NCBI GenBank assembly: GCA_031460175.1
Contig: JAVKGW010000002.1
Coordinates: 310,001 to 374,000, forward strand
DNA length: 64,000 nucleotides
Direction of reading: 5' to 3'
DNA from: Armatimonadota bacterium
Lineage (GTDB): Bacteria; Sysuimicrobiota; Sysuimicrobiia; Sysuimicrobiales; Sysuimicrobiaceae
Part shown: positions 1,321 through 20,532 of the stretch, piece by piece
Layout: each line of letters opens with the position of its first letter
Position numbering within the stretch: the first letter of the stretch is position 1
The notes under the pieces: generated by a model
What the model was told of the DNA's origin: nothing
The model's database searches: none
The model's input: the letters and a program-made list of their open reading frames with translations, nothing else
Made by a program: the position numbers and the translations under genes

Positions 1321-2289
1321 TCAGCGGTCCCGGATCAGGACGAACTCCGTGAGGCCGATGAGGCTGTCGCGGGCAGGGGCCGCGGGGAGGGTCCGGAGCG
1401 CTTCCAGGGCCCACTCCGCGTGCCGACGGGCGGCTTCCCGGGCATAGGCGAAGGAGCCGTACCGCAGGAGCTCCTGGCGCAGGCCCTCCACGTCCCCCTC
1501 CTGGATGAGGCGCACCAGACGCGCGCGGTCTCCATCCCGGGCATGCCGGAGGGCGTGGATGAGGGGGAGGGTCATCTTCCCCGACCGGATGTCGCTGCCG
1601 ATGGGTTTCCCGAGGGTCTCCGGATCACTCAGCAGATCCAGGGCGTCGTCCGTGATCTGGAAGGCGATCCCCCAGTGGAGCCCGAACCGGTCCAGGCGCT
1701 CCGCCACCGCCTCCTCCGCCCCCGCCAGGAGGGCTCCACAGGCGCACGCGGAGGCGATGAGCCGGGCGGTCTTCCCCTCCACGATGCGGAAGTAGATGCC
1801 CTCCTCCGTGTGCGGGGTGTTCCCGTACCGGATCTGCAGGATCTCCGCCTGGCTCATGGAGACCGTGGCGAGGGACATGCGGCTCGCCACGGTCTCCCGG
1901 CCGATGCGGGAGAGCAGGTGGAAAGACTTGGCGAACAGGTAATCCCCCAGCAGGACCGCCACCTGGTTTCCCCACCGGGCGTTCGCGGTGGGCTCGCCCC
2001 GCCGCAGGGGGGATTCGTCGATGACGTCGTCGTGGATCAGGCTCGCCACGTGGATGAGCTCCACCGCCGCGGCCAGGGCCCGGCTTTCCGCGGCAGGTTC
2101 TCCCACGGCCCGGGCGCTGAGGAAGGTGAGGGCGGGACGGAGGAGCTTGCCCCGGGTCCGGAGGACGTGGGTGACCAGCTCCTGGATGAAGGGATCGTCC
2201 GCCGCCAGCTCCTCCGAGAGCAACTGGAGGAGGGCTTCCAGGTCCTCCCGCACGGGCTGGTAGAGGGCTTCAAGGACACGCGGGGTCAT
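1321..2289 (-). CDS. Polyprenyl diphosphate synthase
   Basis: A trans-isoprenyl diphosphate synthase of 322 residues, the normal length. Both aspartate-rich motifs are intact: LIHDDVIDESPLRRG and QITDDALDLLSD, the sites that bind magnesium and the allylic substrate. The GKLLRPALTF motif that binds isopentenyl diphosphate is also present. The enzyme condenses isopentenyl units into the chain that becomes a quinone tail. The ATG overlaps the stop of the upstream cytochrome c gene (ATGA), placing it at the end of the respiratory run, so quinone tail synthesis is the likely role. Chain length (C30 to C50) cannot be read reliably from sequence. Confidence 0.88.
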   Translation of the reverse strand: MTPRVLEALYQPVREDLEALLQLLSEELAADDPFIQELVTHVLRTRGKLLRPALTFLSARAVGEPAAESRALAAAVELIHVASLIHDDVIDESPLRRGEPTANARWGNQVAVLLGDYLFAKSFHLLSRIGRETVASRMSLATVSMSQAEILQIRYGNTPHTEEGIYFRIVEGKTARLIASACACGALLAGAEEAVAERLDRFGLHWGIAFQITDDALDLLSDPETLGKPIGSDIRSGKMTLPLIHALRHARDGDRARLVRLIQEGDVEGLRQELLRYGSFAYAREAARRHAEWALEALRTLPAAPARDSLIGLTEFVLIRDR

Positions 2290-2858
2290 CGGGCCTGCTG
2301 GGCTCCCAGCTGTCGGACGTATGCCACAAGCGCCCAGATCTGCTCGTCCCTCAGGGCCCCGAAGGCCGGCATCCCGCTGCGGCGGGGCGTATCCGCCAAC
2401 CCGTGCTTGATGACCCAGAAGGTCGCCCCCGGAGGCATCCGTTCCTGGAACGCGCGGGCGTGGAAGTTCATGGGCTTTGGGTTCAAGGTCGCGCCCGCGG
2501 GACCGTCCCCCCGACCCTCCGGACCGTGGCAGACCGCGCACAGGGTCGCGTACTGCTGCCCCGCGGCCTGCAGGGCCGCGGGGCTCACGGGGGGCATGCG
2601 GGCGGCTCGGGCCTCCTGCGGGACCACCGCGAGGATTCCCTGGACCTGCTCGCTTCCGTCTTCCACCGGGCCCGCGGCGATGCCGCTCACGCCGGGGACC
2701 GTCCGGGCCACGGGCCGCACCTCCGGCGCCACGAGTCCGCCCACCACGAACAGGTACAGGACCGCCCAAGCGGGGAGGAGGGCGTAGAGCAGGAGCAGCG
2801 GCACCGGAAGCCGTTCCCGCCGCGTGGGATGCTCTGGCGTGGGAGCGTGCTCCGCCAT
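2286..2858 (-). CDS. Membrane-anchored monoheme cytochrome c
   Basis: A 190-residue protein. Residues 1-18 are charged, then about 19-40 form a single membrane anchor (LLLLYALLPAWAVLYLFVV). The exported domain carries one heme c site, CAVCH, near residue 112, and later methionines in MPPGATFW and SGMPAF that could supply the second axial ligand. The gene lies directly after the CcoO-like cytochrome gene and before the quinone-tail synthase. It probably shuttles electrons between the Rieske/cytochrome b proteins and the CcoO/CcoN-like pair, similar to a CcoP-type subunit but with only one heme. The start ATG at 2858 has a purine-rich site upstream; the longer open frame upstream overlaps the neighbouring gene and is rejected. 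Confidence 0.85.
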   Translation of the reverse strand: MAEHAPTPEHPTRRERLPVPLLLLYALLPAWAVLYLFVVGGLVAPEVRPVARTVPGVSGIAAGPVEDGSEQVQGILAVVPQEARAARMPPVSPAALQAAGQQYATLCAVCHGPEGRGDGPAGATLNPKPMNFHARAFQERMPPGATFWVIKHGLADTPRRSGMPAFGALRDEQIWALVAYVRQLGAQQAR

Positions 2859-2866
2859 CCCTTCCC

Positions 2867-3334
2867 TCACTTCAGGCTCATCAGGTAGGCCACCAGGGCC
2901 CGCAGCTCCGCGTCCGAGAGGTACGCGTAGGAGGGCATGCGTCCCGGAGGTGTACGACGACGGGGGTCCCGGAGCAGGCGCAAAAGCTCCTCGGCGTTCG
3001 TGATCCGGTTTCCCACCCGCGCGAGATCCGGGCCGATCCGCACCGTTCCCAGGGCCGTGGGATTCAGGTGTGCGTAGTCCCCCGGGCGGGAGGCCTCTCC
3101 GAGATCCCCGCTCCGGGCCACCACCCCGAACCGGGCCTCCGGGATCCGCACCTGCTGGGTGTGACACTGGGCGCACCCCTCCCGGAGGTACACCGCGTAC
3201 CCCCGCTGCGGCTCCCCCACCAGCGTCCGGGTCGCCCGCGCGGGGGGGACCGCGGGGAGCAGCACCGTGACCACAAACCCGGCGAGGGCGGTGACCAAGC
3301 ACATCAGGGGTAGCGAGGCAGCACGCGTCTGCAT
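2867..3334 (-). CDS. CcoO/FixO-like cytochrome c subunit
   Basis: A 155-residue protein with an N-terminal membrane anchor (about residues 8-28) and one heme c site in the context YLREGCAQCHTQQVR, which is the signature of CcoO, the monoheme subunit of cbb3 oxidases. The later stretch GPDLARVGNRI and the methionine in GRMPSYAYLSD also match CcoO. In a normal cbb3 oxidase this subunit passes electrons to CcoN. Here the neighbouring CcoN-like protein lacks all metal ligands, so the acceptor is uncertain. The usual CcoO is about 200 residues; this one is shorter, mainly in the loop after the heme. Confidence 0.82.
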   Translation of the reverse strand: MQTRAASLPLMCLVTALAGFVVTVLLPAVPPARATRTLVGEPQRGYAVYLREGCAQCHTQQVRIPEARFGVVARSGDLGEASRPGDYAHLNPTALGTVRIGPDLARVGNRITNAEELLRLLRDPRRRTPPGRMPSYAYLSDAELRALVAYLMSLK

Positions 3335-3344
3335 CCCGACCTCC

Positions 3345-4736
3345 CTACACCGCGAGCACCAGGTCCCGCTCCGCCGCGGGAACCTCGATCCCGGAATCCG
3401 CGGTGAGGAACACGTTCCAGCAGAACGCCACCTGCCCGAAGGCCACCAGACCGAGGGCGATGGCCCGGGCCGCCAGGTACGGGACCACCGCGTTCACCCC
3501 GTGGCCGAAGGGCACCGTACCCGTGGCCCACACCGCGCCCTGCACGAGGCCCGCCATCAGGAGGGCTCCCGCGGCCAAAAACCACCCTCCCGTCCACGCC
3601 CAGAAGTGCCACCAGGCGAGCCGGGGGCTGACCAACACCCGCCCGACGGCGGCAGGGATCATGACGTACGCGGCACCCAGAGCCACGGATCCCGCTCCGG
3701 CACCCAACAGGAGCGCCGTCCTCGCCTCCGTCCACAGGGTGAGACCGGCGATCCGGGCGGGGCCGAGTAGGGCTCCCAGTCCTGCCGCGAGGGCCCCGAA
3801 GAGGAACGCGGCGCTGCCCACCGGGAAGAAGGCCAGCCCGGGGGATTCCGACAGCCGGGCCCACTGTCCCTCCAGGGCCCGCCACACCCCCGCGGCGGTG
3901 CTTGCCGCGGGGATCAACAGGAGGAAGCCGGCGACCGCTCCCACCGTCTGTGTCCAGAAGGGCACCGGTCCCCAGATGAACTCGGAGCCGGTGCTGAAGG
4001 GAGCGAAGGCCGCGGTGGTGAGGAGCACCACCAGAGTCAGGGTGGAGTTCGCCTCCCCCGCGTTCGGTCGCCCACCGGCCAGACTCAGGGCCACCGCGGA
4101 GGCCGCGCCGAACAACCACAGCCACCCGAGCCCCTGGCGCAAGAACGCCTGCGCCAGGGCGTCCACGATCCCCCAGTAGGGGTTCCCACCCGGCGTGAAC
4201 AGCCCCTTGCCGAGCACCAGGACCACCACGAGCCACGTCACGGAGCCCATCCCGAGCCAGGCAATGGGATCTTCACGTTTTCCCGCCCGCACGGTCCGCA
4301 CAAGACTCCACAGCACCAAGAGCGCCGCGGCCAAGCGCAGGAGATCTGTACTCGGGGGTGCCTCCCCCCACAGCCGACCCCGGGAGATCCCCCGCAGGAG
4401 ATCCCACCAGGCCAGGAGTCCCGCCAGGTTCCACAGCCAGAAGGCGAGGTTCGCCAGGCGTACGCCCCAGAGGGGCTCCCGGACCGTGGACGGGACGATG
4501 GCCAACAGAGCCGCGAGGAGGAGGTTGCTGCAGAACCCGAAGATCCAGAGGTCCCGGGCCGCCGCCATCAGCCGGCCGTAGGAAAGCCACGACACGTCCC
4601 CGAAGATCCCCGGGAAGACCAGGTGGAGGCTCGCGGCGAGCTCGTGGAGGGCCGCTAGGGCTCCCCAGGCAGTCCCCAGGTACAGGAAGCGACGGGAGGG
4701 GCTCCAGGGTTCGTCCGTGAACATCCAGCCCAGCAT
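3345..4736 (-). CDS. CcoN-like membrane protein without heme or copper ligands
   Basis: A 463-residue polytopic protein with about 12 membrane segments that aligns to CcoN, the catalytic subunit of cbb3 oxidases, along most of its length (for example FPGIFGDVSWLSYGR and WWHFWAWTGG). The positions that should hold metal ligands do not. The low-spin heme His of CcoN (GRLRPLHTNAVIFG) is Ala60. The HxH that binds both hemes aligns without gaps to Arg339-Thr-Ala341. The CuB His-His pair aligns to Ser251-Glu252. Only four histidines remain in the whole protein (31, 38, 377, 412). It therefore cannot be a classical oxidase. It starts three bases after the stop of a small membrane protein and is followed by the CcoO-like gene. 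It may be a structural or quinone-binding anchor. The alignment was made by eye against remembered CcoN sequence. Confidence 0.75.
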   Translation of the reverse strand: MLGWMFTDEPWSPSRRFLYLGTAWGALAALHELAASLHLVFPGIFGDVSWLSYGRLMAAARDLWIFGFCSNLLLAALLAIVPSTVREPLWGVRLANLAFWLWNLAGLLAWWDLLRGISRGRLWGEAPPSTDLLRLAAALLVLWSLVRTVRAGKREDPIAWLGMGSVTWLVVVLVLGKGLFTPGGNPYWGIVDALAQAFLRQGLGWLWLFGAASAVALSLAGGRPNAGEANSTLTLVVLLTTAAFAPFSTGSEFIWGPVPFWTQTVGAVAGFLLLIPAASTAAGVWRALEGQWARLSESPGLAFFPVGSAAFLFGALAAGLGALLGPARIAGLTLWTEARTALLLGAGAGSVALGAAYVMIPAAVGRVLVSPRLAWWHFWAWTGGWFLAAGALLMAGLVQGAVWATGTVPFGHGVNAVVPYLAARAIALGLVAFGQVAFCWNVFLTADSGIEVPAAERDLVLAV

Positions 4737-4856
4737 CTACGTCTCCGCCACCAGACCGAAGGATGCCACGAACAGCAGCAGCAGGAAGAAGGCAATCCAG
4801 AAGAGGGTGTACCACAAGTAGCTGCGCAGCGTCCGGGGGTTAAACCGCCCGATCAT
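4737..4856 (-). CDS. Small single-span membrane protein
   Basis: A 39-residue protein: a short basic N-terminus (MIGRFNPRTLRSYLW) followed by one hydrophobic helix (about 14-36). The ATG overlaps the stop of the MvhD-like gene (ATGA) and the stop abuts the ATG of the CcoN-like gene, so it is part of the same transcript and is translated in step with both. Size and position resemble the small CcoQ/CcoH-type subunits of cbb3 oxidases, but there is no sequence match I can name. It is likely an assembly or stability subunit of the same complex. Confidence 0.7.
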   Translation of the reverse strand: MIGRFNPRTLRSYLWYTLFWIAFFLLLLFVASFGLVAET

Positions 4857-5293
4857 CGCTTCCCTCCTGTCGTGGTGAGACCCTGGACCTTCTCCACGAA
4901 ATCCCGGACCGCGGCCACGAACGCCTCCTGGTCGTGGAGGCCGTAGGCGAAGAAGGCCACCCGCTCCGGGTCCACCCGCTGGCGCTGCAACCGCTTGCGC
5001 AGCTGGTCGATCCGGCCCTCCATGATCCAGTTCCCCTCCCGGTTCAGGCAGTCCCCCATGGGGCACCCGCACACGAAGACCCCCGCGGCACCGCTGCGCA
5101 GCGCCAATTCCAGCCAGGCGGGCCGCACGAATCCACTGCACGGCACCGCGATCACCGTGACCTCCGGGCACGCCTTCATGGTGCCGTCCGGGTTCAGCAA
5201 CCCTTCCCCCGAGACGGCCCAGTCACATAGGAATCCCACCACCCGCCCAGGACGCTCCGGTTCCGTACGCTCCGTCACCTGCGGCTGCGCCAT
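4853..5293 (-). CDS. MvhD/FlpD-like iron-sulfur electron-transfer protein
   Basis: A soluble protein of 146 residues that matches the MvhD family (delta subunit of methyl-viologen-reducing hydrogenase, Pfam FlpD). The family cysteines are present: FLCDW, KACPE, VPCSGF, FVCGCPMGDC. Known members bind a [2Fe-2S] cluster and connect hydrogenases or formate dehydrogenases to heterodisulfide-reductase-like flavoproteins. Here no hydrogenase or HdrA is nearby; instead it sits 13 bases after a cytochrome b with a ferredoxin tail, with a strong GGGAGGAG ribosome site. It is therefore the likely soluble partner that exchanges electrons with those two [4Fe-4S] clusters. Confidence 0.82.
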   Translation of the reverse strand: MAQPQVTERTEPERPGRVVGFLCDWAVSGEGLLNPDGTMKACPEVTVIAVPCSGFVRPAWLELALRSGAAGVFVCGCPMGDCLNREGNWIMEGRIDQLRKRLQRQRVDPERVAFFAYGLHDQEAFVAAVRDFVEKVQGLTTTGGKR

Positions 5294-5306
5294 CGCTCCT
5301 CCCTCT

Positions 5307-6476
5307 TCATCCCGTGGGGACCGGGGCTCCCGTGGCCTGCCGGATCCGCTCGTGGATCTCCCGCTCCAGCATCCGCGGAAGCTCAAGGGCCTGGAAGGGG
5401 CACGCTCCGATGCAGATCCCGCACTCCACGCACCGGGAGTCCACCACCACCGCCAGCAGCTTCCGGTTGGCCGCGGCCCGGGTCTTCCCGGGATAGGGGC
5501 TGGGCACCATGTAGATGGCGTTGTACGGGCAGTCGTAGTAACAGAGCTCGCAGCCCGTGCAGTTGTCCTCCACCACCACGGCCACCCCGGGAGATCTGGG
5601 AACCCGGTCAGGATCGTCGGGCAGGGAGTACGGGATCCACAGGCCGTACACCACCAGGGCCATGACCAGCAGCAAGGCCCAGCCGGGGGCCATCCAGCGG
5701 GCCAGCACGTAGGGCCAGAGGTAAAACCAGTCCACCGCGAACCCCTCCGGCTGCGCGCCCGGGGCCGCGGGCCGGCCGCTCGTGGCGGGAAGAACCGCCG
5801 CGAGGAAGAACAGCAGCCCCACGCTGAAGAGGACCCACAGGGCCGGCGGCCACACCTTGGGGTGCCGGATGCGGACGTAGTGCCACCAGAGGAGGACGTA
5901 GAGGGTGACGGCCGGACCCACGTGCAGGAACAGGAACCGGGGAAGGGTGGCATCGCTCACCCCGGGACCGCCCACGAACAGCCGAACCAGGTGCTCCCCC
6001 ACCAGGGGCACGTCCCGGAGGGCCTGGACGGTCAGGCTCGCCAGGAGCTGGCTGCGCTCGTCCCACACCAGCAGATACCCCGTGAACCCCGCAAGCCCGC
6101 TCACGACCAGGAGGAACATCCCCGAGATCCACGCGGAGTCCCTCGCCTTCCGGTAGCGCTCCGTGAACCAGTTCCGGAACAGGTGCAGCAAGATGGCCAC
6201 CATGAAGGCGTCCGCCGCATACCGGTGGATCCCCCGGAAGATCACCCCGTAGGGCACCCGATCCGTGAGGAACTGCACGGAGGCATAGGCACCCTCCAGG
6301 CTTGGCTCGTAGTACAGGAAGATGAGGATGCCGGAGATCACGAGGACGGTGAGGAAGAGGTTTGCGAGACCCCCCGTGTAGTAGAGGGGGTTGAAGTCCT
6401 GCGGGTAGACCCGCTGGATCCACCGGTCCAGCCGCAGGGTCCAGTCCTGCAGCCTCAGGATCGCCTTCCGGTACAC
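5307..6476 (-). CDS. Cytochrome b fused to a two-cluster ferredoxin domain
   Basis: A 389-residue fusion. Residues 1-210 are the four-helix cytochrome b core with all four heme ligands: His84 and His98 in one helix, His185 and His199 in another, both pairs 14 apart. Residues 210-290 add about three more helices, with VDWFY in the place of the PEWY quinol-site motif of subunit IV. Residues 300-362 form a ferredoxin domain with two [4Fe-4S] motifs, C306-x2-C309-x2-C312-x3-C316 and C349-x2-C352-x2-C355-x3-C359. The protein can thus pass electrons between the quinone pool, two b hemes and two iron-sulfur clusters on one face of the membrane. It is followed by the MvhD-like gene and preceded by a small membrane protein and a second, ligand-poor cytochrome b. 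Confidence 0.9.
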   Translation of the reverse strand: MYRKAILRLQDWTLRLDRWIQRVYPQDFNPLYYTGGLANLFLTVLVISGILIFLYYEPSLEGAYASVQFLTDRVPYGVIFRGIHRYAADAFMVAILLHLFRNWFTERYRKARDSAWISGMFLLVVSGLAGFTGYLLVWDERSQLLASLTVQALRDVPLVGEHLVRLFVGGPGVSDATLPRFLFLHVGPAVTLYVLLWWHYVRIRHPKVWPPALWVLFSVGLLFFLAAVLPATSGRPAAPGAQPEGFAVDWFYLWPYVLARWMAPGWALLLVMALVVYGLWIPYSLPDDPDRVPRSPGVAVVVEDNCTGCELCYYDCPYNAIYMVPSPYPGKTRAAANRKLLAVVVDSRCVECGICIGACPFQALELPRMLEREIHERIRQATGAPVPTG

Positions 6477-6480
6477 CCTC

Positions 6481-6912
6481 TCATTCCTCCCGCGCGGTAA
6501 TTCCCGCCCTCCGAAACAGCAGCACCAGGAAGGAGTACAGCATGAGCAGGACCCCCATGGCCCCCGCGCTCACGAGCCGACGATCCGTGAGCTCCCCGTA
6601 CACCACCCCCCCCACACAGGCGAGGGAGGCGAGGCTCAGGAGGACGATGCCCCGGGCGGATCCCCGCTCCCCCCGGGCCAGGATGCGCTCGTACACCCCG
6701 ATCCGACGCCGGATCCGGCCGGCCCGCCGGTCCGCCGCGTACATCACGAGTCCTGCCCCGAGGAAGGCGGCCACGAGCAGCGCACTCCATCCCACGGCCC
6801 GGGCCCAGGTTCCGGGATTTCCCGTCTGCACCGCCGCCCTCCAGGCCGACCATGCCTCCGGCAGGGCCAGGACCGCGGCGGCGAAGGCGAGAAAGAAGGC
6901 GAGCCTCTGCAC
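6481..6912 (-). CDS. Four-helix membrane protein of unknown function
   Basis: A 143-residue protein with about four membrane helices (near residues 5-22, 44-62, 88-108, 115-133) and a basic loop (DRRAGRIRRRIGVYERIL) between the second and third. It begins with GTG two bases after the stop of the second cytochrome b gene, with GGGAG just upstream, and ends four bases before the cytochrome b-ferredoxin fusion. I do not recognise the family. Its place between two cytochrome b genes suggests a small subunit or assembly factor of that complex. Confidence 0.65.
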   Translation of the reverse strand: MQRLAFFLAFAAAVLALPEAWSAWRAAVQTGNPGTWARAVGWSALLVAAFLGAGLVMYAADRRAGRIRRRIGVYERILARGERGSARGIVLLSLASLACVGGVVYGELTDRRLVSAGAMGVLLMLYSFLVLLFRRAGITAREE

Positions 6913-6914
6913 CG

Positions 6915-8075
6915 CTACGCTCCCGAACTCGGGGCAGGCCGCGCCGCGGGGACCGCCCTCGGGGCGGGCCTGGGGGCCGCGGCCTCCGCAGCCCGCACCT
7001 TCCGGCGGTACCGGATCTCCAGCAAAAACCCCAGGGTGAGGGTGAGGGCGGTGAGGACGAGCACGATGTGGGGATCCCGGCCGATCACCGCGATGTTGAA
7101 CAGGATGAGGGCGGTGAAGACCAGGAAGTAGGTAAGGGCCATGATGCCTACCACGGTGAAGAAGGGGCGCTCGCTGGGCCGCCGTCCCTTGCTGCGGTCC
7201 AGGAAGGGCACCAGCATCCCGTAGGCGATGAGGAGCCCCGGTCCCAGCCCCGCCCACAGCGGTGGGGTGTACTTCACGTACTGGTACAGGGCCAGGAAGT
7301 ACCAGTCGGAAAGGATCGGCAGCGGCGTCCGGTTCGGGTCCGCCCGCCGGCCCATCTCCGCGGGGAAGATCCAGCTGGCGGCCACCAGCATCAGCAGCAG
7401 GATCACCAGGGCGGTGGGGGAGAGGTTGAAGCGCTTCCGGCGGGTGAAGATGAAGTACAGCTCCACCAGGATCAAGAGCAGCACGGAGATCCCGAAGTGG
7501 ATGGCGTAAAAGCGGGTGAGGGTTCCCTGGCCCTCCGCGGGGCCGCCGAGGAACGCGAAGGCGATGGCGCTGCCGAACCGGGTCTGGCCGATGAGGGGGA
7601 GCTGGTCCAGGTAGACGGCCACGGTGAGCACCACCTTGGCGGCCCAGAAGGCCCGCTGGTTCCAGATCAGGAGATACCCCGTGAGGCCGGAGATCATGGC
7701 CAGCACCAGGGACCCGAACAGGATCATCCAGCTGAGCTCGTTGGGTCGCTTGTACTCCCCCAGGAAGTACATGCGGTAGATCCGGAGGGTGATGGCGATG
7801 ATGAGCATGTCCGCCCCGTACTTGTGCATCCCCCGGATGAGCCAACCGAAGGGGATCTCGTGCTGGATGCGGAGGATGGAGTTGTAGGCCCCGTGGGTGG
7901 TGGGCTCGTACCAGATCATGAGGAGGATGCCGCTCACGATGACCACGATCCAGGAGAAGTACACGATCTGGCCGAGAAGATAGAGGGGGTTCCCGTAGCG
8001 CTCCACGTTCGTCTCGTCAAAGAGATCCAGCTTCTGCTTGCGCTCACTGAACCACTCCCGCAGGCGCTCCCACAT
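6915..8075 (-). CDS. Cytochrome b (b6/subunit IV fusion) lacking the n-side heme ligands
   Basis: A 386-residue cytochrome b that joins a b6-like four-helix part (1-215) with a subunit IV-like part (about 215-350) and an Ala/Pro-rich tail (355-386). Alignment to b6 is clear (FGWLIRGMHKYGADM, GQGTLTRFYAIHF). His84 and His193, the pair for the p-side heme, are present. Their partners are not: the residue 14 after His84 is Arg98, and those 14 and 15 after His193 are Tyr207 and Phe208. The n-side heme should therefore be absent. The quinol-site motif reads SDWYF instead of PEWY. It follows the Rieske gene by two bases. It probably forms a complex with the Rieske protein and perhaps with the ferredoxin-tailed cytochrome b downstream. 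Confidence 0.88.
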   Translation of the reverse strand: MWERLREWFSERKQKLDLFDETNVERYGNPLYLLGQIVYFSWIVVIVSGILLMIWYEPTTHGAYNSILRIQHEIPFGWLIRGMHKYGADMLIIAITLRIYRMYFLGEYKRPNELSWMILFGSLVLAMISGLTGYLLIWNQRAFWAAKVVLTVAVYLDQLPLIGQTRFGSAIAFAFLGGPAEGQGTLTRFYAIHFGISVLLLILVELYFIFTRRKRFNLSPTALVILLLMLVAASWIFPAEMGRRADPNRTPLPILSDWYFLALYQYVKYTPPLWAGLGPGLLIAYGMLVPFLDRSKGRRPSERPFFTVVGIMALTYFLVFTALILFNIAVIGRDPHIVLVLTALTLTLGFLLEIRYRRKVRAAEAAAPRPAPRAVPAARPAPSSGA

Positions 8076-8077
8076 GG

Positions 8078-8749
8078 TCAGGCGATCCCTCCCGGCTCCA
8101 CCGCGGTCACCACGATCACCCCGTTCCGGACCTCGTAGACGAAGTAGCGGGGAGGACGCGGCGCCGGGCCGGAGAGCACCCGGCCCGGGACCTCCCGGTC
8201 CGCGGGGTCGTAGATGGAGAGGTGGCAGGGGCAACCCAGGAGCCCGTGCCGGCGCTCCGGTGGGGGCACGTAGCCCCCGTACCCCGCCGTGATCTCCCGC
8301 CAGTCCGGCACGTAGTTGAAGATGCATCCCAGGTGCGGGCAGATCCGGGAGAAGACCACGATGTCCGTGGGTTCCTTGCCCTCCTTGTAGCCCGGGAAGC
8401 GCACCTTCCACGGGAGCCGGATGGCCACCCCGGGAACGGTGGCCGCCTTGGCCTGCTCGGGCGTGTACTGCGGGTACTTCTGGGTGAACACGAAGAACTT
8501 GCTGGACCAGGGCTCCGCGAGCTCCTCCAGCCGCGCGATGGGAAGAGGCTCCCCCTTCGGGAGGTCTCCCTCCGCCAGATCCGGCGGAACCTTGCCCTGC
8601 GGCACGCCGAGACCGGGCTCCAGGTTCGGCTTGAGGTAGCGCAAAAGAGGCGCCGCGAAGGCCGCGAGGGCCCCCACGGCGGGGATGGAGGCCACCAGTT
8701 GCAGGAAGGTCCGTCGGTTCACACCCTTTGCCTTCTGCTCCTCCGCCAT
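8078..8749 (-). CDS. Rieske [2Fe-2S] protein of a bc/b6f-type complex
   Basis: A 223-residue Rieske protein. Residues 10-15 (VNRRTFLQ) resemble a twin-arginine start, followed by one membrane helix (about 16-38). The cluster-binding motifs are CPHLGC (near 137) and CPCHLSIYD (near 174), each supplying one Cys and one His plus the disulfide cysteines. An insertion of about 20 residues rich in Pro, Gly and Tyr lies between the two boxes. The protein takes electrons from quinol at the p-side site and gives them to cytochrome c. It starts 13 bases after the diheme cytochrome gene. Confidence 0.93.
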   Translation of the reverse strand: MAEEQKAKGVNRRTFLQLVASIPAVGALAAFAAPLLRYLKPNLEPGLGVPQGKVPPDLAEGDLPKGEPLPIARLEELAEPWSSKFFVFTQKYPQYTPEQAKAATVPGVAIRLPWKVRFPGYKEGKEPTDIVVFSRICPHLGCIFNYVPDWREITAGYGGYVPPPERRHGLLGCPCHLSIYDPADREVPGRVLSGPAPRPPRYFVYEVRNGVIVVTAVEPGGIA

Positions 8750-8762
8750 GCTCCCCCACTCC

Positions 8763-9629
8763 TCACCGGAGATCCGCGGGCGGCTCGTACACGAAGGTCC
8801 ACAGGTAATCTACCACGGCCCAGATCTCGTTGGGGCTGAGTTCATCCCGGAACGCAGGCATGAGCTTCAACCCCCGCCGCTCCACGCCCTCCGCGATGCG
8901 CTGGTAGAGCTCCGTGGGCTTCCGGTAGGCCATCCACTCCCGGTCCGTGAAGATCCCGGGGCCCACCCCCCGGGCCCAGGTCCACACCAGTTCCCGGAAC
9001 TCCTCCGCCCGGGGTCCTCTCCCATCTCCGGCCGGTCCGTGACATTCCGCGCACCTCTGCTGGTAGATCCTCCGGCCCAGCTGCAGCCGCTCCCGGGTGG
9101 TGGTCCGGCTCCACTCCCAGAACACCACGTCCCAGATCTCCTGGTCCGTGAGCCGCGGGGTTCCGCCATCCGCGGCCCCGTACGCGGGGTGCTGGAACCC
9201 GGGCATGGCGGTGTGCGGGCGACCCCGGGCCACGGTCTCGAACATGGAAAAGGGGGTATTGAGCCGCATCTGGTCGAGGTTGTGGAAGTTGGCGGGCCGG
9301 GAGGGAAGGGGCTCTCCCCTCGGGCGGATCCGGAAAAAGCTCAGGAAGTCCGTGTAGAGGTTCTTCTCGGGTGCGGTGAGGGTCTTCGCCATGGGCCCGT
9401 CTCCCCGGCCCTCGGGTCCATGGCAGACCGCGCACCGGGCGTCGTAGGTCTTCTTCCCCGCATCCGCGCTGGGCTTGCGGGGCATGAAGCCCATGCGGAC
9501 CACGTAGCGGGGAAGGGGCTCATAGGCAGGTCCCCGGGGCCCGGCCATCCGGATGTACGGTTGGCAGCCCCCGAGCAGCACCGCGGCGAGGCCGAGGAAA
9601 AAGACACGCACCGCGACGGGTCGGCTCAT
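8763..9629 (-). CDS. Diheme cytochrome c lipoprotein
   Basis: A 288-residue exported protein with a lipoprotein signal: hydrophobic residues 8-20 and the lipobox LLGGC near residue 21, so the mature protein is membrane-tethered by lipid. Two heme c sites follow, CAVCH (near 74) and CAECH (near 189), each in its own cytochrome c domain of roughly 110 residues. Methionine-containing stretches in each domain (TAMPGF, LKLMPAF) could give the sixth ligand. It is the first gene after the promoter at 9717-9745 and precedes the Rieske gene, so it is the likely electron acceptor of the Rieske protein, in the role of cytochrome c1 or f. Confidence 0.88.
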   Translation of the reverse strand: MSRPVAVRVFFLGLAAVLLGGCQPYIRMAGPRGPAYEPLPRYVVRMGFMPRKPSADAGKKTYDARCAVCHGPEGRGDGPMAKTLTAPEKNLYTDFLSFFRIRPRGEPLPSRPANFHNLDQMRLNTPFSMFETVARGRPHTAMPGFQHPAYGAADGGTPRLTDQEIWDVVFWEWSRTTTRERLQLGRRIYQQRCAECHGPAGDGRGPRAEEFRELVWTWARGVGPGIFTDREWMAYRKPTELYQRIAEGVERRGLKLMPAFRDELSPNEIWAVVDYLWTFVYEPPADLR

Positions 9630-9716
9630 GCGATTTTCCCGATCTTGCCCGCGCTCTCCTTCCGGGAAGACACGAAAAGGCAGGACCGGCGCGGCCCCGC
9701 CCTCAAGGCCACCGGC

Positions 9717-9745
9717 ATTGTCCAACCTTTCCCGGGATCCGTCAA
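9717..9745 (-). promoter_or_regulatory. Promoter of the diheme cytochrome/Rieske/cytochrome b genes
   Basis: On the minus strand TTGACG (9745-9740) is followed after 17 bases by GACAAT (9722-9717). The -35 element overlaps the TGA stop of ccmE. It would give a leader of about 80 bases before the cytochrome ATG at 9629. This is the only sizeable gap in the 19-kb heme/cytochrome run. Confidence 0.6.
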
Positions 9746-10128
9746 GGCGCGTCCTCCCCTCCCTCGTACTTCGTGGGGCACTTGGTGAGCAGGACCCTCG
9801 CCCGGAACACCCCCTCCGGACCCCACGTCCCCTCCACCACCACGGGCGCCCCGTCCCGGAAGAGGTCCGTCACCACCCCCCGGTAGGTCACGGGCAGCCG
9901 GGCGTCTCCCTCCGCGAGCACGAAAAAGACCCGAGAACCTTCCCGACGGATGCTTCCGGGGACCACGTTCCCCGCCACCCGAACCGGGACGCCGTACGCA
10001 GCCTCCCCCCGGGCCTGAAGTTCCGAGACGGTGACGTAATAGACGGCCGCGGACCGCACCCCACCGTAGACGAGCACACCGAGACCCGCGAGGATGAGCC
10101 CCACGAGCAGGAATCTCCGCCTCTTCAC
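9742..10128 (-). CDS. ccmE: Cytochrome c maturation protein CcmE, Cys-type
   Basis: A 128-residue heme chaperone with an N-terminal membrane anchor (about 6-24) and an OB-fold domain facing outwards (VAGNVVPGSI, FVLAEGDARLPVTYRG, DLFRDGAPVVVEG). In most bacteria heme binds a histidine in an H-x3-Y motif near the C-terminus. Here the motif is CPTKY, the C-x3-Y form known from archaea and some bacteria with a variant System I. It starts with GTG, overlapping the ccmD stop (GTGA). It receives heme exported by CcmABCD. Confidence 0.88.
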   Translation of the reverse strand: MKRRRFLLVGLILAGLGVLVYGGVRSAAVYYVTVSELQARGEAAYGVPVRVAGNVVPGSIRREGSRVFFVLAEGDARLPVTYRGVVTDLFRDGAPVVVEGTWGPEGVFRARVLLTKCPTKYEGGEDAP

Positions 10129-10295
10129 TGGCGATCCTCCACGAACCCGTGCGGTTCTGTCCGCTTCCCCTCCCGCACCTGGGCCTCCAGCCTCGTGATC
10201 TCCTGATGAAGTTGGCTCGTCCGATGGTGCAGCCACATGAGGTACGCCACCAGGGCCACCCACACGAGCCAGTACGCCCAGAACAGGTAGACCAT
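10125..10295 (-). CDS. ccmD: Small membrane protein CcmD
   Basis: A 56-residue protein starting MVYLFWAYWLVWVALVAYLM, one membrane helix followed by a charged helical tail. This layout, the length and the position between ccmC and ccmE fit CcmD, the small subunit that helps release heme-loaded CcmE from the CcmABC complex. It starts one base after the ccmC stop and overlaps ccmE by four bases. CcmD is poorly conserved in sequence, so the call rests mainly on context. Confidence 0.75.
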   Translation of the reverse strand: MVYLFWAYWLVWVALVAYLMWLHHRTSQLHQEITRLEAQVREGKRTEPHGFVEDRQ

Positions 10296-10296
10296 G

Positions 10297-10968
10297 CTAC
10301 CCGCTTACCTCGATGCGCAGGCGTCGCACGGCCCCGTCCAGGAGCCCCACCCGCAGACGCAGGCGCACCAGAGCCGCGTACAGGAGGATGAAGGCGAAGA
10401 GCGTCATCACCAGGGCGTGCACCATGGCGGGCTCCAGTCCCGTGGGCCTGCCCGCGGGATCCTGCCCGAAGACCACGGGGTGCACGCCGCGCAGCAGGCG
10501 GACGCTCAGGAACACGAGCGGCAGGTTCAGAAAGGCCAGGATGCCCACCACCGCCGCAAAGCGGCGGGCTCGGTCTCCCTCCGAGACCGCGCGGAGAACG
10601 AGATATCCCAGGTACACCAGCTGCGTCAGGAGGGTGCTGGTGAGCTGCGGTTCCCACGTCCACCACACCCCCCAGGTGGGCTTGGCCCACACGGCTCCCG
10701 TGAGGAGCACGAGCCCGTTGAACAGCACCCCGATCTCCGCGGAGGCTCCTCCGAGTTCGTCCCAGTAGGCTTCCCGGGCGCGGAGGTACTGGATCCCCGC
10801 GCCAAAGGTCACGAGGAAGGCCAGCAGAGCCGCTCCCCACAGGCCCAGGTGCACGTAGAAGATCCGCTGCAGGTGGCCCATGATCCGCTCGGTGGGGGCG
10901 TAGAAGAAGCTTCCGTACCACGCCAGGGACAGCGCCACCACCAGCGCCCCGGCCTCCAGACGCTTCAA
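10297..10968 (-). CDS. ccmC: Heme exporter/handling protein CcmC
   Basis: A 223-residue protein with six membrane helices. It carries the tryptophan-rich heme-handling motif as WGVWWTWEPQLTS (near residue 100; the usual form has WD in place of WE) and flanking histidines in FYVHLGLWG and GVHPVVF that can bind heme. CcmC attaches heme to CcmE. The ATG overlaps the stop of the ccmAB fusion (ATGA). No ccmF or ccmH homolog lies in this window, so the ligation step must be encoded elsewhere. Confidence 0.92.
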   Translation of the reverse strand: MKRLEAGALVVALSLAWYGSFFYAPTERIMGHLQRIFYVHLGLWGAALLAFLVTFGAGIQYLRAREAYWDELGGASAEIGVLFNGLVLLTGAVWAKPTWGVWWTWEPQLTSTLLTQLVYLGYLVLRAVSEGDRARRFAAVVGILAFLNLPLVFLSVRLLRGVHPVVFGQDPAGRPTGLEPAMVHALVMTLFAFILLYAALVRLRLRVGLLDGAVRRLRIEVSG

Positions 10969-12341
10969 GATCCGTCCTCCACCACGGCTTCGAAGAGCAG
11001 CAGACTCGCGGCCCCCAGGATGATAGCAAAGGCAGCTACCAGCCGCAATTCAGGCCACGCCTCGCCCAGCGGCAGTCCCCGCAGGACCTTCGCCGTGGCT
11101 CCCACGCTGCCGATGAGGAGGGGGAGGGCCAGGGGCACGAGGAGGAGCGGGAGCATCAGCTGCCGCAGGCGGGTGTTCGCGGCCACCACGCTGAGCAGGG
11201 TTCCCGGGAGCCCCAGGCCTGCGCTGCCCAGCAACAGGACCGCGCCCAGGGAGGCCACCCGGCGGGGATCCAAGTCTACGTTCAGCAGCACGGCGAACAC
11301 GCCGAGGCTCAGAGCCTCCACGAGCAGCATCCACAGGAAGGTGCTGGTGGCCTTCGCGCCCAGGATGGCGGCCCGATCCACGGGGCTCGCGAGTACGGCC
11401 CACCCCGCCCGCTGCTCCTGCTCCAGTTCATACGCGCGCCCAAGCCCCAGGAGGGCGGTGAAGGTGACGGTGGTCCAGAGGATCCCCGGCCCTGCGGAGG
11501 CCACCACCGCGGGGTCCAGCCCCACAGCCACGCTGAAGAGCACCAGGGCCACGAGGGCCATGGTCCCCATGGAAAGGAGGATCTCCCGGGCCCGCAACTC
11601 GATCCGGAGGTCCTTGCTGACCAGCGCCCGGTAGGCTGTCCAGAATCCGGGAACCCGGCCGCCTCCCGGCAAGGCCGCGGTGGCCGGAGGGCGGGAGGAT
11701 CCCGCCTCCGGCACCAGCCGCCCGTCCCGCAGGCCCAGGATCCGGTGGCAGAGTCCCGCCACCTCCTGGGGTCGGTGGGTGGTGAGGACCAAAGCCCCCC
11801 CGGAGGCAAGGTAGCGGAGCAAGGTGGTGCGCAGCCAGTCCGATCCCTCCGCGTCCAGGCCCGTAAAGGGCTCGTCCAGGAGGAGGAGGGCGGGCTGGGG
11901 CAGGAGGGCCCGGACGAGGCTTACGCGCTGCTGCCACCCCCGGGAGAGGTTCCGCACGAGCTCCCCCCGCCGCGCTCCCAGCCCGCCCTCCTGGATCAAC
12001 CCCTCCACCCGTTCGGGGGCTACCCCGTAGAGCACGGCGAACAGGCGCAGGTTCTCCTCCACGGTGAGGCCGCCGTACAGGAAGGTCTCGTGCCCGGTCA
12101 TCCCCAACCGGATCCGGACGGCCTGGGGTTCGTGCCACGGATCCAGACCGAACAGCCGCAAGCTCCCCCTATCCGGCCGCAAGAGGGTGGCGAGGACGCG
12201 CAGGAGGGTGGTCTTTCCCGAGCCGTTGGGCCCCACGATGGCCACCGCCTCCCCGGGATACACCTCCAGGTCCACCTCCCGCAGCACCCGGTGCTCTCCC
12301 AGGGCTTTTCGGATCCCTCTCGCGGAGAGTACGGGGGACAC
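10965..12341 (-). CDS. ccmAB: CcmA-CcmB fusion: heme-export ABC transporter
   Basis: One continuous 458-residue frame holds both parts. Residues 1-205 are the CcmA ATPase: Walker A GPNGSGKTT, signature NLSRGWQQR, Walker B LLLLDEPFTG and the H-loop TTHRP. After a Ser/Pro/Gly linker at about 210-235, residues 240-458 are CcmB, with about six helices and the typical opening VSKDLRIELRAREIL. CcmA and CcmB are normally separate proteins; no stop or start break is visible between them. The GTG start at 12341 follows a TGAGGT ribosome site and lies five bases before the stop of the upstream gene. Confidence 0.88.
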   Translation of the reverse strand: MSPVLSARGIRKALGEHRVLREVDLEVYPGEAVAIVGPNGSGKTTLLRVLATLLRPDRGSLRLFGLDPWHEPQAVRIRLGMTGHETFLYGGLTVEENLRLFAVLYGVAPERVEGLIQEGGLGARRGELVRNLSRGWQQRVSLVRALLPQPALLLLDEPFTGLDAEGSDWLRTTLLRYLASGGALVLTTHRPQEVAGLCHRILGLRDGRLVPEAGSSRPPATAALPGGGRVPGFWTAYRALVSKDLRIELRAREILLSMGTMALVALVLFSVAVGLDPAVVASAGPGILWTTVTFTALLGLGRAYELEQEQRAGWAVLASPVDRAAILGAKATSTFLWMLLVEALSLGVFAVLLNVDLDPRRVASLGAVLLLGSAGLGLPGTLLSVVAANTRLRQLMLPLLLVPLALPLLIGSVGATAKVLRGLPLGEAWPELRLVAAFAIILGAASLLLFEAVVEDGS

Positions 12342-14601: not shown

Positions 14602-15341
14602 CCCCTGGGCTCCTTTCCCGCGCAGACCGCGGACTCCGCCCCGCGCAGCCACCGCTGTACGGCACGGTGCAGGACCTCCCGGTAGTACCGCAACCGGACC
14701 TCCGGGTCATCGAGTCCCCCCCAGAACCGGCGCGCGGGATTCTTGTAGATGCGGCCGATGGGGATCTCCCGGACGCGCAGCTTCAAGGCCGCGGCCTGCA
14801 CCCACACCTGCAGGGGCATCCCGTAGGAGGGCTCGTCCAGTTCCAGCCTCCGGAGGGCCTCCGCCCGGTACGCCTTGAACCCGCAGAAGGCATCCGTGAT
14901 CCCCAATCCCGTGAGGGCGTTCACCTCCTCCGTGATCTCCCGGTTGATGCGGAGCCGGTCCGGCGGCGGATCCTGGCCCCGGGAGGAGCCCGGGAGATAG
15001 CGGCTCCCGGAGACGATGTCCACGCCCTCCAGGGCGCTCAGGAGGTCTGGGATGAGGTAGGGCTCGTGCTGCTCGTCGCAGTCCATGGTCACCACCACGT
15101 CGTACCCGTGTTCCAGGGCATACCGGAAGCCGCTCATCAGGGAGGCCCCGTACCCGCGGTTTTCCGGGTGGCGGATCACCCGGACCTCCGGAAACCGCTT
15201 CAGGATCTCCGGGGAGTGGTCCGTGCTGCCGTCGTCCACCACCAGGATGTCCGCCGCGGGCGCGTACCGCCGCACCGCCCGCAGCACCCCTTCCAGGGTC
15301 TGCTCCTCATTGTACAGGGGCATGACGATGAGGACCCTCAT
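14598..15341 (-). CDS. Family 2 glycosyltransferase, DPM1/polyprenyl-phosphate type
   Basis: A 247-residue soluble GT2 enzyme starting MRVLIVMPLYNEEQTLEGVL. It has the nucleotide-binding VVDDGSTD, the metal-binding MDCDEQHEP in place of DxD, and GSRYLPGSSRGQ and KNPARRFWGGLDD near the C-terminus. The family transfers a sugar from a nucleotide donor, often to polyprenyl phosphate. There is no membrane tail. It overlaps hemL on one side and the deacetylase on the other by four bases each, so it is co-transcribed with the heme genes although its role is likely in envelope glycan synthesis. Confidence 0.82.
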   Translation of the reverse strand: MRVLIVMPLYNEEQTLEGVLRAVRRYAPAADILVVDDGSTDHSPEILKRFPEVRVIRHPENRGYGASLMSGFRYALEHGYDVVVTMDCDEQHEPYLIPDLLSALEGVDIVSGSRYLPGSSRGQDPPPDRLRINREITEEVNALTGLGITDAFCGFKAYRAEALRRLELDEPSYGMPLQVWVQAAALKLRVREIPIGRIYKNPARRFWGGLDDPEVRLRYYREVLHRAVQRWLRGAESAVCAGKEPRG

Positions 15342-16624
15342 CGCAGCTCCCGGAGGGCCTCGTAGGCTGCCTCGACCGTGTGCTCGATCTCCTCCGGCCC
15401 GTGGGCCAGGGACACGAACATGGCCTCGAACTGGCTGGGCGGGAGGTAGACGCCCCGGCGCAGCATCTCCCAGAAGAACTGCGCATACCGGACCACATCC
15501 GACCTCCGGGCGCTTTCGTAGTCCCGCACGGGAACCTCGGAGAAGAACAGGGTGAGCATGCTCCCCACCCGGTTCAGCTGCACGGGCACGCCCGCGGTTC
15601 GGGCCGCGTCCAGAAGTCCCTCTCCCAGTTGGGCACTCGTCCGCTCCAGTTGCTCGTAGGTTCCGGACTGCCGCAACCGTTCCAGGGTCGCCAGCCCCGC
15701 CCGTACCGCCACGGGATTCCCCGAAAGCGTGCCCGCCTGGTACACGGGTCCCGCGGGCGCCACCAGGGACATCACGTCGCGCCGTCCACCGTAGGCCGCG
15801 AGGGGAAACCCACCGCCGATCACCTTCCCCAGAGAGGTGAGGTCCGGCCGGATGCCGAGGACCGCCTGGGCCCCGCCCCACCCGACCCGGAAGCCCGTAA
15901 TGACCTCGTCGAAGACCAGCAAGGCGCCGTACGCCGCGGTCAGGTCCCGCAGGATCTCCAGAAACGCCCGCTCCGCGGGCACCACGCCCATGTTGCCCGC
16001 CACGGGTTCCACCACCACCGCGGCGATCTCCGGTCCGAACCGCGCGAAGGCCTCCTCCACGGCCTGGACGTCGTTGTACGGGAGGGAGAGGGTATGCTGG
16101 ACCGCGGCCGCGGGAACGCCCGGGCTATCCGGGAGCTCCAGGGTGGCCACGCCGCTCCCCGCACGGACCAAAAGGGCGTCCGCGTGCCCGTGATAACCGC
16201 CGTCGAATTTCACGATGCGGTCCCGCCCCGTGGCGGCCCGGGCGACCCGGAGGGCACTCATCACCGCCTCGGTGCCGCTGCACACCAGCCGCACCATCTC
16301 CAGGGAGGGAACGGCCTCGCAGAGCACCTCCGCGAAGGCCACCTCATACGGGGTGCAGGCACCGAAGGAGCTTCCGCCTTCCACGGCCTCCACCGCGGCC
16401 CGCACCACCTCCGGGTCCGCGTGCCCGCAGATGAGGGCGCCCCAACTGCCCACGTAGTCCACGTACCGGTTCCCGTCCACGTCCTCCACGTATGCCCCCT
16501 CGCCCCGCACGATAAAGGGCGGAATCCCGCCCACCGCCCGAAAGGCCCGGACAGGGCTGTTCACGCCCCCCGGCATGAGGGCCTGGGCGCGGGCGTAGAG
16601 CCTGTGGGAACCGTCCTGCCTCAT
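15338..16624 (-). CDS. hemL: Glutamate-1-semialdehyde 2,1-aminomutase
   Basis: A PLP enzyme of 428 residues, the usual length. It converts glutamate-1-semialdehyde to 5-aminolevulinate. Diagnostic stretches are MPGGVNSPVRAF, CSGTEAVMSALRVARA, DGGYHGHAD, FDEVITGFRVG and the PLP lysine in TSLGKVIGGGFP. It closes the order hemA-C-D-B-L and overlaps hemB by four bases (ATGA). Confidence 0.96.
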   Translation of the reverse strand: MRQDGSHRLYARAQALMPGGVNSPVRAFRAVGGIPPFIVRGEGAYVEDVDGNRYVDYVGSWGALICGHADPEVVRAAVEAVEGGSSFGACTPYEVAFAEVLCEAVPSLEMVRLVCSGTEAVMSALRVARAATGRDRIVKFDGGYHGHADALLVRAGSGVATLELPDSPGVPAAAVQHTLSLPYNDVQAVEEAFARFGPEIAAVVVEPVAGNMGVVPAERAFLEILRDLTAAYGALLVFDEVITGFRVGWGGAQAVLGIRPDLTSLGKVIGGGFPLAAYGGRRDVMSLVAPAGPVYQAGTLSGNPVAVRAGLATLERLRQSGTYEQLERTSAQLGEGLLDAARTAGVPVQLNRVGSMLTLFFSEVPVRDYESARRSDVVRYAQFFWEMLRRGVYLPPSQFEAMFVSLAHGPEEIEHTVEAAYEALRELR

Positions 16625-17604
16625 GCCCGGAGCTTCCGCGCGGCTTCCTTCGCGAAGTACGTGAGGATCACATCCGCCCCGGCCCGCCGGATGGCCAGGA
16701 GGGTCTCCCACATGGCCCGCTCCAGATCCACCCACCCCCGCTGGGCGGCGGCGTGGATCATGGCGTACTCCCCGCTCACCTGGTAGGCGGCGGTGGGCAC
16801 CCCGAACCGTTCCTTCACCGCCCGCAGCACGTCCAGGTAGGGGAGCGCGGGCTTGACCATCACCAGGTCCGCACCCTCCTCCAAGTCCTGCGCCACCTCC
16901 CGCAGGGCTTCCCGTATGTTCGGGGGATCCATCTGGTAGCTTCGCCGATCCCCGAACCGCGGGGAGCTCTCCGCGGCCTCCCGGAACGGGCCGTAGAAGC
17001 AGCTGGCGTACTTCGCCGCATACGCCAGGATCCCCACGTGGGAGTAACCCGCCTGATCCAGGCTCCGGCGGATGGCCTGGACCTGCCCGTCCATCATGCC
17101 GGAGGGCGCCACGAGGTCCGCGCCGGCCTCCGCCTGGGCCACCGCCACGCGGCCGTAGATCTCCAGGGTGGCATCGTTGTCCACGGGCCCCTCGGGCCCT
17201 GCCAAGACCCCGCAGTGGCCGTGGTCCGTGTACTCGCACAGGCACAGGTCCGCGAGGAGCACCACCTGATCCCCGAACTCCCTCCGCAGCCTCCGCAGGG
17301 CTCGCTGGACGATCCCCTCAGGGCTGTAGGCCTCGCTCCCCACCGGATCCTTCCGCGTGGGGATCCCGAAGAGGATCACCGCCCGGACTCCCGCCTCCAG
17401 GAGTTCTCCCACCTCCCGCACCAAGCTGTGCAAGGTGTGCTGGTACTGACCCGGAAGGGAGGGAATCTCCACGGGCTGCGAGAGGCCCTCCTTCACGAAG
17501 AGGGGGGCGACCAGCTGCTCGGCCCGCAGGGCGTGCTCGGCCACCAGCCGCCGCAGGACCTCCGTGCGACGCAGCCGCCGTCCCCGGTGGACCGGAAATC
17601 CCAT
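16621..17604 (-). CDS. hemB: Delta-aminolevulinate dehydratase (porphobilinogen synthase)
   Basis: A 327-residue enzyme that condenses two 5-aminolevulinate molecules to porphobilinogen. The metal site is of the cysteine (zinc) type: DLCLCEYTDHGHCG. The Schiff-base lysines lie in KYASCFYGPFREA and MVKPALPYLD. RRSYQMDPPN is the conserved active-site lid. It begins one base after the hemD stop and overlaps hemL at the other end. Confidence 0.96.
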   Translation of the reverse strand: MGFPVHRGRRLRRTEVLRRLVAEHALRAEQLVAPLFVKEGLSQPVEIPSLPGQYQHTLHSLVREVGELLEAGVRAVILFGIPTRKDPVGSEAYSPEGIVQRALRRLRREFGDQVVLLADLCLCEYTDHGHCGVLAGPEGPVDNDATLEIYGRVAVAQAEAGADLVAPSGMMDGQVQAIRRSLDQAGYSHVGILAYAAKYASCFYGPFREAAESSPRFGDRRSYQMDPPNIREALREVAQDLEEGADLVMVKPALPYLDVLRAVKERFGVPTAAYQVSGEYAMIHAAAQRGWVDLERAMWETLLAIRRAGADVILTYFAKEAARKLRA

Positions 17605-17605
17605 C

Positions 17606-18346
17606 CTACCGCCTCCTCTCGAGAACCGCGCGCACCGCCTGCACCACCCCCTCGGAAGTGTACACCTCAGCGACCCCGTCCACCCGCAACCCCAACTCCC
17701 TGGCCGCCTCTGCGGTCACGGGACCGATGCACACCAGCCGGGTGCCCTCCGGGAGCCGTCCCCCTCCCAGCAAGGATACCAGGGCCCTCGCCGCGGAAGG
17801 GCTCGCGAGGGTCACCACATCCACCCCTTCCCGGATCGCCTCCCTCAGCCGGGGAGCCTCCTCCCAGGCCACCTCCGTCCGGTAGGCGGCCACCACCTCC
17901 ACCTCCGCACCCCGCGCCCGCAGTCCTTCGGGCAGCACGTCCCGGGCCTCCTCCGCCCGGGGGATCAGGATCCGCACGCCTCGCAGTTCCTGGGCTGCGA
18001 AGGCCTTCACCAAGCCCTCCGCCCGATACTCGGATGGCTGGAACACTGCAGGGATGCCCAGCTGTTCCAGCCTTCGGGCGGTGGCGGGTCCGATGGCAGC
18101 GATGCGCACGCCCCGCAGGACTTCCAGGGAGATGTCCAGGTGGCGGAGCCGGCACTCCACTGCCCGGACCCCGTTCTGGCTCGTGAACACCACCCACTGG
18201 TAGGTTTCCAGCTGGCGCAAGGCCCGGTCCAGATCCTCCCAGGACGGAGGAGGGAGGATCCGGAGGAGGGGGATGTGCACCACCTCCAGGCCCAGGGCCC
18301 TCAGCCGCGCTCCGAGCTCAGAGCCCTGAGACGCGGGACGCGTCAC
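17606..18346 (-). CDS. hemD: Uroporphyrinogen-III synthase
   Basis: A 246-residue HemD. The family is poorly conserved, but the fold landmarks are visible: VTRPASQGSELGARLRALG at the N-terminus, VVFTSQNGVRAVE, IAAIGPATARRLEQLG, VEVVAAYRTE, VVTLASPSAARAL and LVCIGPVTAEAARELG. It closes the linear tetrapyrrole with inversion of ring D. The GTG start shares its G with the hemC stop (TAGTG), a one-base overlap, and the order between hemC and hemB supports the call. Confidence 0.92.
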   Translation of the reverse strand: MTRPASQGSELGARLRALGLEVVHIPLLRILPPPSWEDLDRALRQLETYQWVVFTSQNGVRAVECRLRHLDISLEVLRGVRIAAIGPATARRLEQLGIPAVFQPSEYRAEGLVKAFAAQELRGVRILIPRAEEARDVLPEGLRARGAEVEVVAAYRTEVAWEEAPRLREAIREGVDVVTLASPSAARALVSLLGGGRLPEGTRLVCIGPVTAEAARELGLRVDGVAEVYTSEGVVQAVRAVLERRR

Positions 18347-20519: not shown

Positions 20520-20532
20520 CGCTCCTGGTGCG

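Follow-up and report, generated by a model that had tools for sequence, protein, structure and literature searches.

Two cytochrome b genes that share a single Rieske gene raise the question of where the second electron of quinol oxidation goes when one of the two b chains has no ligands for haem bH. Such a locus lies in the window analysed here, a stretch of 64,000 nucleotides from an Armatimonadota bacterium (GCA_031460175.1, contig JAVKGW010000002.1, positions 310,001 to 374,000). The operon genes are all on the minus strand, and the plus-strand frames at the same place are meaningless. We call the two chains bR (6915..8075, 386 residues; PF00033 at 5.9e-32 and PF00032 at 1.4e-7) and bF (5307..6476; PF00033 at 4.3e-32 and Fer4 at 3.5e-11). 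PF00032 was matched in bR and not in bF, and Fer4 families were matched in the fused tail of bF, which has motifs for two [4Fe-4S] clusters. A Rieske gene (8078..8749) precedes bR, and a gene for an FlpD/MvhD-like protein (4853..5293; hereafter FlpD) follows bF; both b genes, the Rieske gene and the MvhD-like gene stand where a preliminary description of this locus had placed them. From the comparisons below, we conclude that bR and bF probably form a physical heterodimer. For the system as a whole we propose, tentatively and at slightly less than an even chance, a Rieske/cytochrome b complex of asymmetric build, its two b chains splitting the work and quinol-driven electron bifurcation running outward.

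The haem ligands of the two chains differ. In bR, the bL ligands His84 and His193 are invariant, and Arg98 and Tyr207 occupy the sites of the bH ligands. The first bH site is arginine in 22/22 bR sequences, and the second is a residue other than histidine (Phe, Tyr, Leu, Met or Trp) in 21 of the 22. The exception comes from a metagenome-assembled genome (MAG) labelled Symbiobacterium (L074), which has arginine at the first site and has kept histidine at the second, and which, judged by its sequence, looks like an intermediate in the loss of the bH ligands. In bF the ligands are H84, H98, H185 and H199. All four histidines are present in 23/23 bF sequences, and in a 21-sequence alignment they are invariant together with the eight cysteines of the tail (C306/309/312/316 and C349/352/355/359, in two CxxCxxCxxxCP motifs). 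Among the ordinary cytochromes b that came out of the same searches, 51/51 have the full set of four histidines, and bR departs from the rule of Rieske/cytochrome b complexes that every b chain holds two haems through four histidines. The alignments thus bear out the earlier claim of one b chain with p-side ligands only, and of another with four ligands and a two-cluster tail. That the ligands are missing from bR by chance or decay is ruled out by the counts across relatives and by low ratios of non-synonymous to synonymous substitution rates (dN/dS, about 0.06-0.16 for bR and 0.08-0.25 for bF); both chains are under purifying selection. Close to the lost second bH ligand of bR lies an invariant Glu205, and a salt bridge between Arg98 and Glu205 may fill the empty haem pocket.

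The quinol oxidation (Qo) site presents the complementary picture. In bR, the cd1 stretch W138 N139 x R141 ... W144 A145 and the motif SDWYF (256-260) are invariant (22/22). In bF, Trp144 is lost, the PEWY stretch is degenerate and variable (VDWFY, LDVFF, VDWLF), and the position of bR Ala145 holds a bulky residue in 22/22 sequences (Leu 15, Val 4, Ile 3). At this position, 50 of 51 ordinary cytochromes b carry Ala or Gly; we take the column to be that of Gly158 of Rhodobacter capsulatus. Qo motifs of the cd1 and PEWY type, a criterion for every b chain of a Rieske/cytochrome b complex, are therefore intact in bR but degraded in bF. This pattern suggests that quinol oxidation is most likely confined to bR, the Qo site of bF looking dead. 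The preliminary description had quinol oxidised in either half, and in this it is not borne out; its pairing of complementary b chains around one Rieske protein does stand, with the co-occurrence, synteny and n-side tail described below. The same residues bear on the idea that bR is a degenerate structural subunit, with bF doing all redox work as an ordinary cytochrome b and the tail and FlpD being regulatory or vestigial. bF alone carries ligands for both haems, as that idea needs, but the Qo residues are better conserved in bR than in bF, dN/dS is low in both chains and the eight tail cysteines are invariant. We consider it very improbable.

The complementary losses, of haem bH in bR and of the Qo site in bF, are best understood if bR and bF carry electrons along a common path, and each bR-bF pair has one Rieske gene. 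Lesions of the same two kinds, one per chain, were combined in engineered cross-inactivated Rhodobacter bc1 complexes (fused WB-BN type), in which G158W kills Qo in one half and H212N removes haem bH in the other (PMC4330944). These asymmetric complexes still turn over, so that electrons pass between the two bL haems on a catalytic time scale (PMC4330944). Natural bR and bF resemble them in the bulky residue at the Gly158 position and in a bL-bL step as the probable sole path. The engineered complexes differ in being laboratory-made from copies of an ordinary cytochrome b, and in that their electrons reach quinone at the quinone reduction (Qi) site, not iron-sulfur clusters.

We infer that bL-bL transfer is a working electron path here as well. 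In the proposed mechanism, bR, with the Rieske protein and a dihaem cytochrome c, would oxidise quinol at its Qo site. The first electron would go from quinol through the Rieske protein to cytochrome c, and the second to haem bL of bR. With no haem bH in bR, the sole exit for this electron would be haem bL of the partner bF, from which it would continue to haem bH of bF (the sole n-side haem), the two [4Fe-4S] clusters and cytoplasmic FlpD. Run outward, this would be quinol-driven bifurcation that supplies low-potential electrons to the cytoplasm.

The association of the two chains is supported by their distribution. The relatives in the named collection are CSP1-3, 'Armatimonadetes' and ANGP1 MAGs, i.e. 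the phylum Sysuimicrobiota (PMC11604079). A strong match to bR was found in 36 of 41 genomes and one to bF in 37 of 43, and the order dihaem cytochrome c, Rieske, bR, small transmembrane protein, bF, FlpD, polyprenyl synthase was found in 20/20 phylum loci read, as well as in the longer named loci. The co-occurrence of both b types, which the preliminary description had put forward as a check on its heterodimer, thus proved strict and syntenic across the phylum. Among the phylum genomes there is no case of a single b chain with demonstrable absence of the partner, the one-sided cases being contig ends or poor assemblies: bR stands at a contig end with no strong bF in two genomes (G037, G038), a contig end cuts bR beside bF in another (G040), and in a genome that is 64% complete (G392) the second chain is present only as a fragment. 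Neither b chain was found in four genomes, all of one genus. In the genus that lacks the pair, one locus (G010:C1:56000-70000) has instead a Rieske/cytochrome b with four histidines and PEWY, adjoining genes for a molybdopterin oxidoreductase and multihaem cytochromes.

Distances in the two trees are correlated (mirror-tree r = 0.91 for bR-bF versus 0.74 for bR-polyprenyl synthase), which supports but does not prove interaction, as vertical descent alone yields high values. In the trees, bR forms one clade (100/98) and the Symbiobacterium-labelled MAG is basal for both chains; bF, when a distant fusion described below is included, does not form one clade, and some branches are long. A single, pattern-limited scan of 84,980 species found bR-type genes in the phylum and in this one MAG, which has the whole operon. 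Its locus (3620-11738, labelled Symbiobacterium thermophilum) reads CcoN-like, CcoO, cytochrome c, Rieske, bR, bF, FlpD and small peptide; the MAG may be a true relative, or the locus may reflect transfer or misbinning. Apart from the distant fusion, searches of about 300 genomes from the phylum of that MAG, and of 154 from its class, gave no second full bF. A Brocadiia MAG (L079) with a 30% match was rejected as a relative, being a lone short b-like open reading frame without operon context.

The position of the iron-sulfur tail follows from topology. The AlphaFold2 model of bF has six helices, A to F, ahead of the tail. In cytochromes b the N-terminus is on the n side, and an even number of helices therefore returns the chain to that side. 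The model thus supports a tail on the n side beside haem bH. In Foldseek searches the models of both bR and bF matched bc1 cytochrome b, that of bF over about 280 columns.

FlpD (146 residues; PF02662 at 6.1e-27), encoded next, is the probable cytoplasmic electron-exchange subunit; besides the family match it has the expected set of four cysteines (Cys23, 52, 77 and 82), conserved throughout the relatives. Contact between bF and FlpD is supported, by analogy, by a fusion in a distant, Bacillota-class genome (L139; G355:C117, 7558-9078, minus strand), where cytochrome b, two [4Fe-4S] motifs and FlpD lie in one 507-residue frame with one in-frame TAG. It adjoins SCO1-like and CtaB-like genes, and no Rieske or bR gene was found within the 11 kb read around it. 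The preliminary description had held that b genes lying apart, or singly with all ligands, would tell against a pair. This fusion answers to that description only in part; within the phylum no genome with a demonstrably single chain was encountered.

This fusion is also the evidence for a reading with two separate homodimers, one of bR with the Rieske protein and no haem bH, and one of bF with FlpD, acting alone as a quinone:iron-sulfur oxidoreductase like QmoC or HdrE. QmoABC, HdrDE and Hdr-Mvh (with FlpD/MvhD) join quinones to cytoplasmic redox partners through a cytochrome b, two [4Fe-4S] clusters and an MvhD-type domain, and the cytochrome b and two clusters of Qmo/Hdr systems function without a Rieske protein. 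They differ from the present operon in a cytochrome b of the HdrE-type family and in having neither a Rieske protein nor a cytochrome c. In a bR homodimer the Qo site would work, yet the second electron would find no haem past bL, which leaves a dead end with a risk of superoxide formation, and the invariant synteny and co-divergence of bR and bF would be unneeded. We regard separate homodimers as improbable, at a higher probability than a merely structural bR.

Given a heterodimer, the outward direction is mildly favoured, because haem bH was lost in exactly the chain with the active Qo site, so that the low-potential electron is forced towards bF and its iron-sulfur outlet. Several points weigh against the bifurcating heterodimer. 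When quinol drives the reduction of low-potential iron-sulfur clusters, the step from bL to bH runs against the membrane potential. The AlphaFold2 monomers built from 21-sequence alignments reached mean confidence scores (pLDDT) of 59 for bR and 55 for bF, too poor to judge an interface. The distant fusion indicates that the bF-FlpD module can perhaps work without bR. On the cytoplasmic side, HdrA2-type proteins were found in 12 of 43 genomes and no dedicated acceptor was identified; a clear NiFe hydrogenase is absent from the host genome, and hydrogenases are missing from many phylum genomes.

A hydrogenase was accordingly rejected as the partner of FlpD in the host, and HdrA was rejected as a general partner, with matches in just 12/43 genomes. 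FlpD thus has neither an MvhAG hydrogenase nor HdrA as a general partner here, notwithstanding an HdrA2-FlpD fusion (1133 residues) that the host genome encodes beside 2-oxoacid:ferredoxin oxidoreductase genes (L152; G000:C7:2000-21900). A soluble ferredoxin as the cytoplasmic acceptor is our guess. The locus of this fusion also contains a molybdopterin oxidoreductase with iron-sulfur and NrfD-like subunits.

The main rival keeps the heterodimer and reverses the n-side flow: ferredoxin or another donor would reduce FlpD, the tail and haem bH of bF, and quinone would be reduced at Qi with electrons from the Qo site of bR as well. Such an enzyme would merge a ferredoxin:quinone oxidoreductase with a Q-cycle, akin to what has been proposed for cytochrome b6f in cyclic flow. 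The gene adjoining the host HdrA2-FlpD fusion points to a possible source of reduced ferredoxin, and electrons entering from the n side would be spared the work against the membrane potential between bL and bH. bF could hold a Qi site, since it keeps the bH ligands together with N29, G35/G36, R101 and R202 on the n side. For b6f, a ferredoxin route through heme cn has been proposed (PMC9342900); the likeness lies in entry at the n-side haems, the difference in a homodimer with heme cn, at which ferredoxin or FNR docks and is not fused (PMC9342900). However, bF has Tyr at the column of the heme cn cysteine, its Qi site is only putative, and inward flow does not itself explain why haem bH was removed from bR. 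We judge inward flow unlikely, though the most serious of the alternatives to outward bifurcation.

Quinol-driven bifurcation to a low-potential cytoplasmic acceptor has been proposed before, for the Rieske/cytochrome b complexes Kuste4569-4574 and Kustd1480-1485 of anammox bacteria (PMC12954380). There, too, the acceptor is reached through haems b and iron-sulfur clusters, but these complexes are modelled as homodimers with split b6 and subunit IV, haem cN, an NAD(P) oxidoreductase and a hexa- or octahaem cytochrome c, and no bH-less b chain, fused ferredoxin tail or FlpD is reported for them (PMC12954380). Neither the NAD(P) oxidoreductase subunit nor the hexa- or octahaem cytochrome c of the anammox type is present in the operon, be it in the window or in the 20 loci. 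Among the best NCBIfam profile matches of both b chains were ExtP and ExtQ (NF040969, NF040970), whose profile has no iron-sulfur tail; the two chains score 152 and 138 bits, below the ExtP (NF040969) cut-off of 290 bits.

No bH-less b chain paired with an iron-sulfur-fused b chain was found described in the open literature, most subscription journals being outside this coverage, and no described complex, engineered mutants aside, is known to need electrons to cross between its halves. Within that coverage, the earlier statement that no complex of this build had been described stands for the bR/bF-type pair. The bifurcation concept was already proposed in the anammox work (PMC12954380), and bL-bL transfer is known from engineered bc1 (PMC4330944). 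What we regard as new is the variant within Rieske/cytochrome b complexes: b chains that occur together in nature, each with the lesion that its partner lacks, one of them fused to a ferredoxin-like tail. That they constitute a natural obligate heterodimer, with bL-bL transfer between monomers as the sole route, a ferredoxin-like domain as the outlet, and quinol oxidation driving low-potential electrons into the cytoplasm, is possible, if a shade more doubtful than the asymmetric bifurcating complex proposed at the outset. The paper describing Sysuimicrobiota reports autotrophy, and none of the words 'cytochrome', 'Rieske', 'bc1' and 'complex III' occurs in its main text (PMC11604079). So far, the debate on whether electrons cross from bL to bL in the living cell has rested on engineered bc1 mutants with asymmetric halves. 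Here the same asymmetry has apparently arisen by evolution and persisted throughout a phylum, which makes the question testable on a native enzyme. If outward flow is true, this would be a second, differently built quinol-driven source of low-potential reductant besides the anammox proposal.

The host genome (2.49 Mb, 99% complete) has bR and bF as its sole PF00033 genes. Since a single operon joins a PF00033 cytochrome b to a Rieske protein and a c-type cytochrome, the locus belongs among the Rieske/cytochrome b systems. From 9629 to 1321 the genes are those for the dihaem cytochrome c, Rieske, bR, a small membrane protein, bF, FlpD, a 39-residue single-transmembrane peptide, a CcoN-like protein, a CcoO-like cytochrome c, a cytochrome c and a polyprenyl diphosphate synthase. 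The first encodes a c-type cytochrome with two CxxCH and a possible lipoprotein signal (8763..9629; Pfam Cytochrom_C at 3.2e-22), and its open reading frame extends to 9725 with a TTG start. Both CxxCH are kept in 20/20 relatives, and the gene has the same position in all loci read. The Rieske protein has a twin-arginine N-terminus and the cluster motif CPHLGC...CPCH, present in 20/20 relatives (TIGR01416 at 5.6e-10; Pfam Rieske at 0.0056, under its cut-off).

The operon also retains, throughout the phylum, two small membrane proteins assigned to no family. The hydrophobic protein between bR and bF (6481..6912) is present in all 20 loci, and Pfam and NCBIfam searches with it gave no match. The 39-residue peptide (4737..4856) overlaps FlpD by four bases; by tblastn it is recognisable in many loci and in the Symbiobacterium-labelled MAG, where it is 55% identical. 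The CcoN-like protein of the COX1 family (3345..4736; COX1 at 7.4e-25) has neither haem nor copper ligands when aligned to 3mk7 and relatives. Its gene, present in 9 of 43 genomes and next to the b pair in that MAG, is a family-specific extra in the operon, and its product may be a cofactor-free subunit of long standing in the bR/bF complex. Two monohaem cytochromes c follow, one CcoO/FixO-like (2867..3334; FixO at 6.4e-19) and one membrane-anchored (2286..2858; Cytochrom_C at 2e-12). The polyprenyl diphosphate synthase (1321..2280, N-terminal boundary approximate) is the fixed last gene of the operon, with a homologue of 52-69% identity at the same place in loci of other genera, and probably makes the quinone side chain. 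Cytochrome c maturation genes lie upstream of the operon (9742-12100, minus strand), and a haem biosynthesis cluster lies downstream (15338-20537, minus strand; hemL, hemB, hemD, hemC and hemA by sequence).

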